Below are positions 363 through 36,053 of a DNA stretch of 43,488 nucleotides, piece by piece. The stretch comes from Bacteroidota bacterium (GTDB lineage: Bacteria; Bacteroidota; Bacteroidia; NS11-12g; UBA9320). The position numbers and the translations under genes are program-made. The stretch spans positions 1 through 43,488 of the forward strand of contig WGNA01000028.1 of NCBI GenBank assembly GCA_016124755.1, in the 5' to 3' direction. Under the pieces are notes generated by a model. That model saw only the letters and a list, made by a program, of their open reading frames with translations. It did no database searches and had not been told where the DNA came from. Each line of letters starts with the position of its first letter. The first letter of the stretch is position 1.

Positions 363-449
363 GAGAGAGCGGAGGGCATAAAGAGCAAAGAGCGCAAGAG
401 CGGGGATCTGTTGATTGTTTTTTATCTTACCACAAAGCACGATTTACAA

Positions 450-507
450 GCATTATCCGTATTTGTAGGGGCAAGGCATGCCTTGCCCCTACAAATACGG
501 ATAATGC
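450..507. repeat. 58-bp perfect palindrome (MITE/REP-like)
   Basis: Every base from 450 to 507 pairs with its mirror position about the centre between 478 and 479, giving two 29-bp arms with no loop. The core is GGGGCAAGGCATGCCTTGCC flanked by ATTTGTA/TACAAAT and ATTATCCG/CGGATAAT. The GTAGGGGC..GCCCCTAC type core resembles short palindromic elements dispersed in many bacterial genomes (from memory, not searched). It does not sit next to a T-run and so does not look like a normal terminator. Confidence 0.9.
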
Positions 508-603
508 AAACTTGCCCTTACCAATTCTACCGACCGATTTATCCTCCAAAAACAAACCGCTCTCCCGCACTTTGCTCTTTCGCTCTTTCGCACTTTTGTT
601 CTC

Positions 604-4902: not shown

Positions 4903-4979
<77 letters not shown>

Positions 4980-36016: not shown

Positions 36017-36053
36017 TTAAAAAACGTGGTTGAATTCAACCACGTTTTTTTTG
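36017..36053. terminator. Bidirectional rho-independent terminator
   Basis: AACGTGGTTGAA (36023-36034) is followed directly by its complement TTCAACCACGTT (36035-36046), with A-run on the left and TTTTTT on the right. It can end both the plus-strand lipoprotein transcript and the minus-strand channel transcript that converge here. Confidence 0.93.

Follow-up and report, generated by a model that had tools for sequence, protein, structure and literature searches.

How two long arms come to be exact inverted copies of each other, and stay so, is the question raised by a palindrome near the start of the window (the whole 43,488-nt stretch of Bacteroidota DNA analysed here). The original prediction, made from the sequence alone, described two 29-bp arms without mismatch or loop, with no T-run following and no obvious target duplication. 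The palindrome scan bore out the structure (arms 450–478 and 479–507, 29 nt each, 100% complementary, 0 nt between them), and by inspection the window palindrome has neither a T-run 3' of it nor a direct target duplication. Folded as single-stranded DNA, the region reaches −32.9 kcal/mol, whereas 200 shuffles average −8.05 with an SD of 2.15, which puts the region at z −11.6.

A dispersed core with copy-specific arms

Table 1. Features of the palindrome locus in the window
Feature	Position	Strand	Basis
Whole feature, 58-bp perfect palindrome	450..507	.	palindrome scan, folding
Core, 28 bp, dispersed unit, centre between 478 and 479	465..492	.	genome search
Left outer arm, 15 nt, specific to the window copy and its diverged paralogs	450..464	+	
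Right outer arm, the left outer arm copied exactly in inverted orientation	493..507	+	
Longer dispersed segment surrounding the palindrome; paralogs on C26, C11 and partly C3, their palindromes imperfect	382..521	+	

The palindrome is flanked by a divergently oriented gene pair, with a minus-strand frame at 2–226 on the left and a GNAT acetyltransferase gene at 852–1412 on the right, and one window protein carries a T9SS sorting domain. An Rfam scan of the window placed no family over the palindrome, its sole match being a tRNA at 4906–4979, and no family was found at the core in six other loci. Short six-base tandem arrays at 346–362 and 725–770, inverted relative to each other, flank the palindrome, and nested imperfect inverted repeats across 327–807 result from these arrays. 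Positions 581–755 belong to a dispersed repeat that includes CTTCGCTTCGCTCAGCATGACG; C3 carries five copies of it, and several more lie on C26 and C11 (80–95% identical). The second-longest loopless palindrome of the window (36019–36050, 32 bp, perfect, 16-nt arms) has A/T runs at its ends and is terminator-like.

Copies of the core are dispersed through the genome. A 28-base query found 19 places at up to 3 mismatches in the whole genome (G000, 4.05 Mb), a gapped pattern search added a 30-bp core variant on C1, and 22 copies were scored, decayed ones included. The original prediction had proposed a genome search with the full 58-bp sequence and with its core. Copies were indeed found, but the repeated unit is the inner 28 bp only; the outer arms differ from copy to copy, and the outer 15 nt of each window arm are confined to that site and its diverged paralogs. 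A single copy together with absence from all relatives, or a fold-back read, had been named as a result that would weaken a mobile-element reading. The genome holds 22 copies, and because the core is multi-copy a fold-back artefact is very unlikely. These are contig assemblies with some copies near contig ends (C7, C12, C17), as an artefact of assembly or amplification might produce, but the arms end after 2–20 nt with unique DNA beyond them on both sides, and the effect is confined to the core and is seen in two assemblies independent of each other. We give this explanation almost no weight.

The palindrome runs 2–20 nt past the core in 22/22 copies, and its letters there are different each time. 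The extensions are 2, 2, 3, 3, 4, 5, 5, 6, 8, 8, 8, 9, 12, 12, 13, 13, 15, 15, 16, 16, 17 and 20 nt, where the window copy has 15 and the value of 20 on C1 becomes 19 if measured from the ends of its own 30-bp core. Beyond the arms, alignment revealed no older, decayed symmetry in this genome; base-by-base symmetry was slightly up (0.318 versus 0.277), with 30 of 1000 shuffles as high. Core variants are often altered on both sides, though not on C6, C12, C15 and C17 or in the decayed copies of C3 and C18.

GC skew near the 22 copies averages +0.33 over the 80 bases left of the core and −0.37 over the 80 bases right of it, compared with +0.04 and −0.05 at cores of other genomes. Another dispersed hairpin repeat (GTCCGTAG...CTACGGAC) is frequently found 45–70 bases off a core, in either orientation, with sites at L179 9080–9170 (beside a half core) and on L034, L027, L031, L026 and L030.

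The core in other genomes

The core was found in none of 57 relatives of G000, and of 395 genomes drawn from across the class, only G000 and G074 contained it. A scan of species genomes matched it in at least 118 stretches. Titles among the matches listed were Chloroflexi, Cyanobacteria, Bacteroidales, Deltaproteobacteria, Acidobacteria, Nitrospirae, Omnitrophota, Planctomycetota, Chlorobiaceae, Actinomycetes and others; since metagenome-bin titles can be wrong, single phylum rows are not to be trusted. Matches were also present in nine viral contigs, and a search of plasmids and phages returned one Nostoc plasmid (8 places), a weak match in Nonomuraea and no phage. In Coleofasciculus (L051, L156 and related loci), the core is embedded in a larger cyanobacterial repeat, itself multi-copy, and has gained copies along with that repeat. 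In other genomes, 74% of 347 flanks have a pyrimidine directly adjoining the core, a possible target preference.

Extended arms are absent around most cores elsewhere. Among 174 distinct copies from other records, 127 showed no extension, 28 extended by one nt, nine by two, four by three and six by at least four, counts that lie near four-letter chance save for the last group. G074, which belongs to the same class as G000, has 21 copies, 16 without extension, four with 1 nt and one with 2 nt. Termite-gut Bacteroidales (13 copies, 6 without extension, maximum 5 nt) possibly show a weak form of the same behaviour. The 13-nt extension at L069 looks like a core nested inside a diverged core, and an 11-nt extension at L098 led to G439, described below. 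A Mann-Whitney comparison of extension in the G000 copies with that in 193 copies from elsewhere, even with most of the Chloroflexi ones among the latter, gave p = 1e-16. Alignment scores past the arms were raised in the mixed set of other genomes, but we draw nothing from this because the control pairs were made across genomes that differ in composition.

Perfect, copy-specific extensions recur in G439, a Chloroflexi MAG unrelated to G000. It carries 15 core copies and all 15 are extended, each by at least 3 nt (3, 4, 5, 5, 5, 5, 6, 6, 8, 11, 11, 11, 15 and 18 nt; the fifteenth, interrupted by a contig end, by at least 3). The 15 cores contain seven different inner triplets, every one matched on both sides. 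Since all copies in this genome are extended, arm extension belongs to whole genomes and not to single sites, and it has either had two or more origins or goes with a host state.

Gene content of the carriers was considered in this context. SbcD, a subunit of a palindrome nuclease, scored below the cut-off in G000 and 19 relatives, which makes it plausible that long palindromes are retained in a permissive host, and it also scored below the cut-off in G439. Loss of SbcD as the cause of extended arms was nevertheless rejected, as two carriers with clean flanks, G074 and G446, are also without a match. The protein scored above the cut-off in G445, G447 and G450, where the copies seen have clean flanks, and also in G451, where the one copy seen extends 3 nt. 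SbcD loss may permit long arms but does not determine them. MutS is present in G000.

Origin of the extended arms

Selection for a strong hairpin, acting as a terminator, an mRNA stabiliser or a protein site, could keep the arms paired, and both the strong fold and the intergenic position of many copies agree with this. An intrinsic terminator, however, consists of a hairpin and then a T-run downstream of a gene, and the window copy lacks a T-run and lies between a divergent pair. Orientations of neighbouring genes are mixed across the 22 copies (5 divergent, 5 minus tandem, 4 convergent and 1 plus tandem, the remainder being 1 without a right neighbour and 6 within short mechanical frames). 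Selection at the RNA level would also allow G-U pairs and has no need of loopless perfection, and the flanks of cores elsewhere are unpaired. We consider such selection a distinctly improbable source of the arms.

A different order of events would start from loopless palindromes or cruciforms already in place, with the core inserting precisely at their centre; the outer arms would then represent the original target and the core a later arrival. This would account for symmetric flanks at every copy in G000, and some published REP families lie inside target palindromes, according to the accessible text of PMC3733652. The same text states that target palindromes without a REP were not found in two of three genomes with such families. 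In a background sample of 400 kb of G000, not picked for cores, there were 23,386 core-less loopless palindromes with arms of at least 2 nt, eight with arms of at least 8 nt, one with at least 9 nt and none with at least 11 nt. Insertion into such targets would yield mostly 2–4 nt, but 14/22 copies extend by at least 8 nt and 10/22 by at least 12 nt, and nearly every long palindrome in the genome would need to hold a core. In most other genomes, cores lack any preference of this kind. Given that no core-less arms of at least 11 nt occur in the 400 kb, insertion into ready-made palindromes is unlikely, and the core-less counts indicate that long palindromes are tied to the core. A genome-wide surplus of long palindromes was rejected on the same 400 kb, where none was seen (samples from relatives were small, 206 kb and 35 kb). 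One core-less palindrome, with 25-nt arms and a 1-nt spacer, lies at L026 10417–10467 (C33).

On balance, the window palindrome is one copy of a dispersed 28-bp element whose arms have probably been lengthened and kept identical by fold-back template switching. Under this mechanism, the strand bearing the core would become single-stranded, at a fork or during insertion of the element, and the core would snap into a hairpin. The 3' end of the hairpin would prime short synthesis on its own strand, copying 2–20 nt of the adjoining flank, and synthesis would then go back to the normal template. The predicted product is a perfect palindrome in which the inner 28 bp are common and the outer part is an inverted copy of local flank, and the same reaction could later clear mismatches between the arms. 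We examined coding flanks in G439 to tell template from copy; two long open frames run into the core but do not establish the original gene end. In E. coli, template switching is an established route by which quasipalindromes become perfect (PMC7202029, in the portion available).

Differences between the window copy and its paralogs are consistent with fold-back copying. The window copy and the C26 paralog are identical at 56/68 and 36/53 flanking bases. Paralogs on C26, C11 and C3 contain the same long palindrome with many arm mismatches, whereas the window copy has none, and between the window copy and C26 one outer position and one core position, a small number, show symmetric differences, as read by eye from an alignment. 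Arms more perfect than those of a related sequence, accompanied by symmetric changes, characterize quasipalindrome template switching, and both are seen here, at these few positions. The exact arms and symmetric paralog differences are as expected from arm-to-arm copying. The perfect window palindrome suggests later correction of the arms, and the imperfect paralogs show that arms decay as well. Core mismatches remain uncorrected on C6, C12, C15 and C17, so correction is not constant.

Some loci contain partial cores. On C1 of G000 and at L057 and L104, a half core runs straight into a tandem repeat of what precedes it, with another core beyond. This arrangement fits strands halting and switching at the palindrome centre, but recombination could give the same result. 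Half cores beside the GTCCGTAG-hairpin repeat (C1, L179) were also considered as a pre-palindrome state and rejected, as tandem duplication or decay explains them equally well.

The shortest extensions bear on when copying might occur. No copy in G000 or G439 has an extension of 0 or 1 nt, although some would be expected if fold-back were a random later process, and this absence favours copying as part of insertion. It is possible, if on the unlikely side, that the core is a cross-phylum 28-bp mobile palindrome that in some hosts undergoes hairpin-primed insertion with an obligatory inverted target-site duplication of 2–20 nt. The paired 3' end of the element would be extended on the target strand before rejoining. 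If so, each new copy would be a longer, site-specific perfect palindrome, and the inverted target duplication would differ from the direct repeats left by known transposons. In a search for an empty site, which turned up none, the joined flanks of the core-bearing cyanobacterial repeat matched one flank or the other, never across the join.

Relation to known repeats

Among known systems, GTAG-tagged REPs are the nearest description of the core family (PMC3733652, available text). REPs and REPINs with this tag share with the core a short, dispersed palindrome, GTAG at an end, compensatory two-sided changes and occurrence in several phyla, and REPs are likewise mostly extragenic and sometimes located within larger palindromes (accessible portions of PMC3733652 and PMC3116915). 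The 28-bp core in 22 copies also has the size and dispersal of such REPs (palindromes of 20–40 bp in many copies). However, a GTAG-tagged REP has an unpaired GTAG, as given in the open part of PMC3733652, whereas here GTAG at 465–468 pairs with CTAC at 489–492 and leaves no free tag. A REPIN contains two inverted REPs around a spacer, whereas the palindrome here is single and loopless, no REP-flanked RAYT gene stands alongside the core, and, unlike in GTAG-tagged REPs, each copy has outer arms of its own.

The original prediction offered three readings, namely recent origin, a selected role, or active mobility as a MITE or REP-type element moved by a RAYT-like transposase. Its mobile-element reading holds as far as a dispersed, multi-copy palindrome is concerned, but the link to RAYT does not. 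GTAG and CTAC ends, copy number and three Y1_Tnp genes in G000 are in keeping with movement by a RAYT-type Y1 transposase, as in a classical REP/REPIN or MITE. Against this, the suggested check for a REP-associated transposase came back negative, as none of the three genes is near a core (no core within ~1.5 kb) and GTAGGGG is absent from all three loci. The GTAG is paired, there is no REP dimer structure, and 173 other copies showed no consistent direct target duplication, such as accompanies the terminal inverted repeats of a MITE, but a slight excess of short matches (2-base matches 22 versus 10.4 expected, 3-base 7 versus 2.9, none above in number). A classical element of this type is quite unlikely.

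Small dispersed repeats (SDRs) of Nostoc, attributed to Elhai in 2008, are reportedly 21–27 nt long, partly palindromic and presumed mobile. In these general traits they may resemble the core, but arms extended into the flank are not known for SDRs.

Two systems resemble the proposed copying more than the core itself. In quasipalindrome template switching (Ripley; Dutra and Lovett; PMC7202029, available part), a strand likewise folds back, copies itself and perfects the arms. The switching described there occurs at single imperfect palindromes, whereas here it would affect all copies of a dispersed element and carry the arms on into new flanks. The coding palindromes of Nematomorpha mitochondria are also many perfect inverted repeats in one lineage for which template switching was proposed to homogenise the arms, but they lie in mitochondrial genes, and the accessible text mentions no common core sequence (PMC6649704). 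The open-access literature searched, core strings included, contained no description of the core repeat family in its available text.

If fold-back copying is right, a tiny repeat present in unrelated bacteria builds longer perfect palindromes from its surroundings. The 37 copies in two genomes would then be natural, replicated records of template switching. Why some hosts allow extension would become testable, and the pattern may reveal a new kind of insertion footprint.
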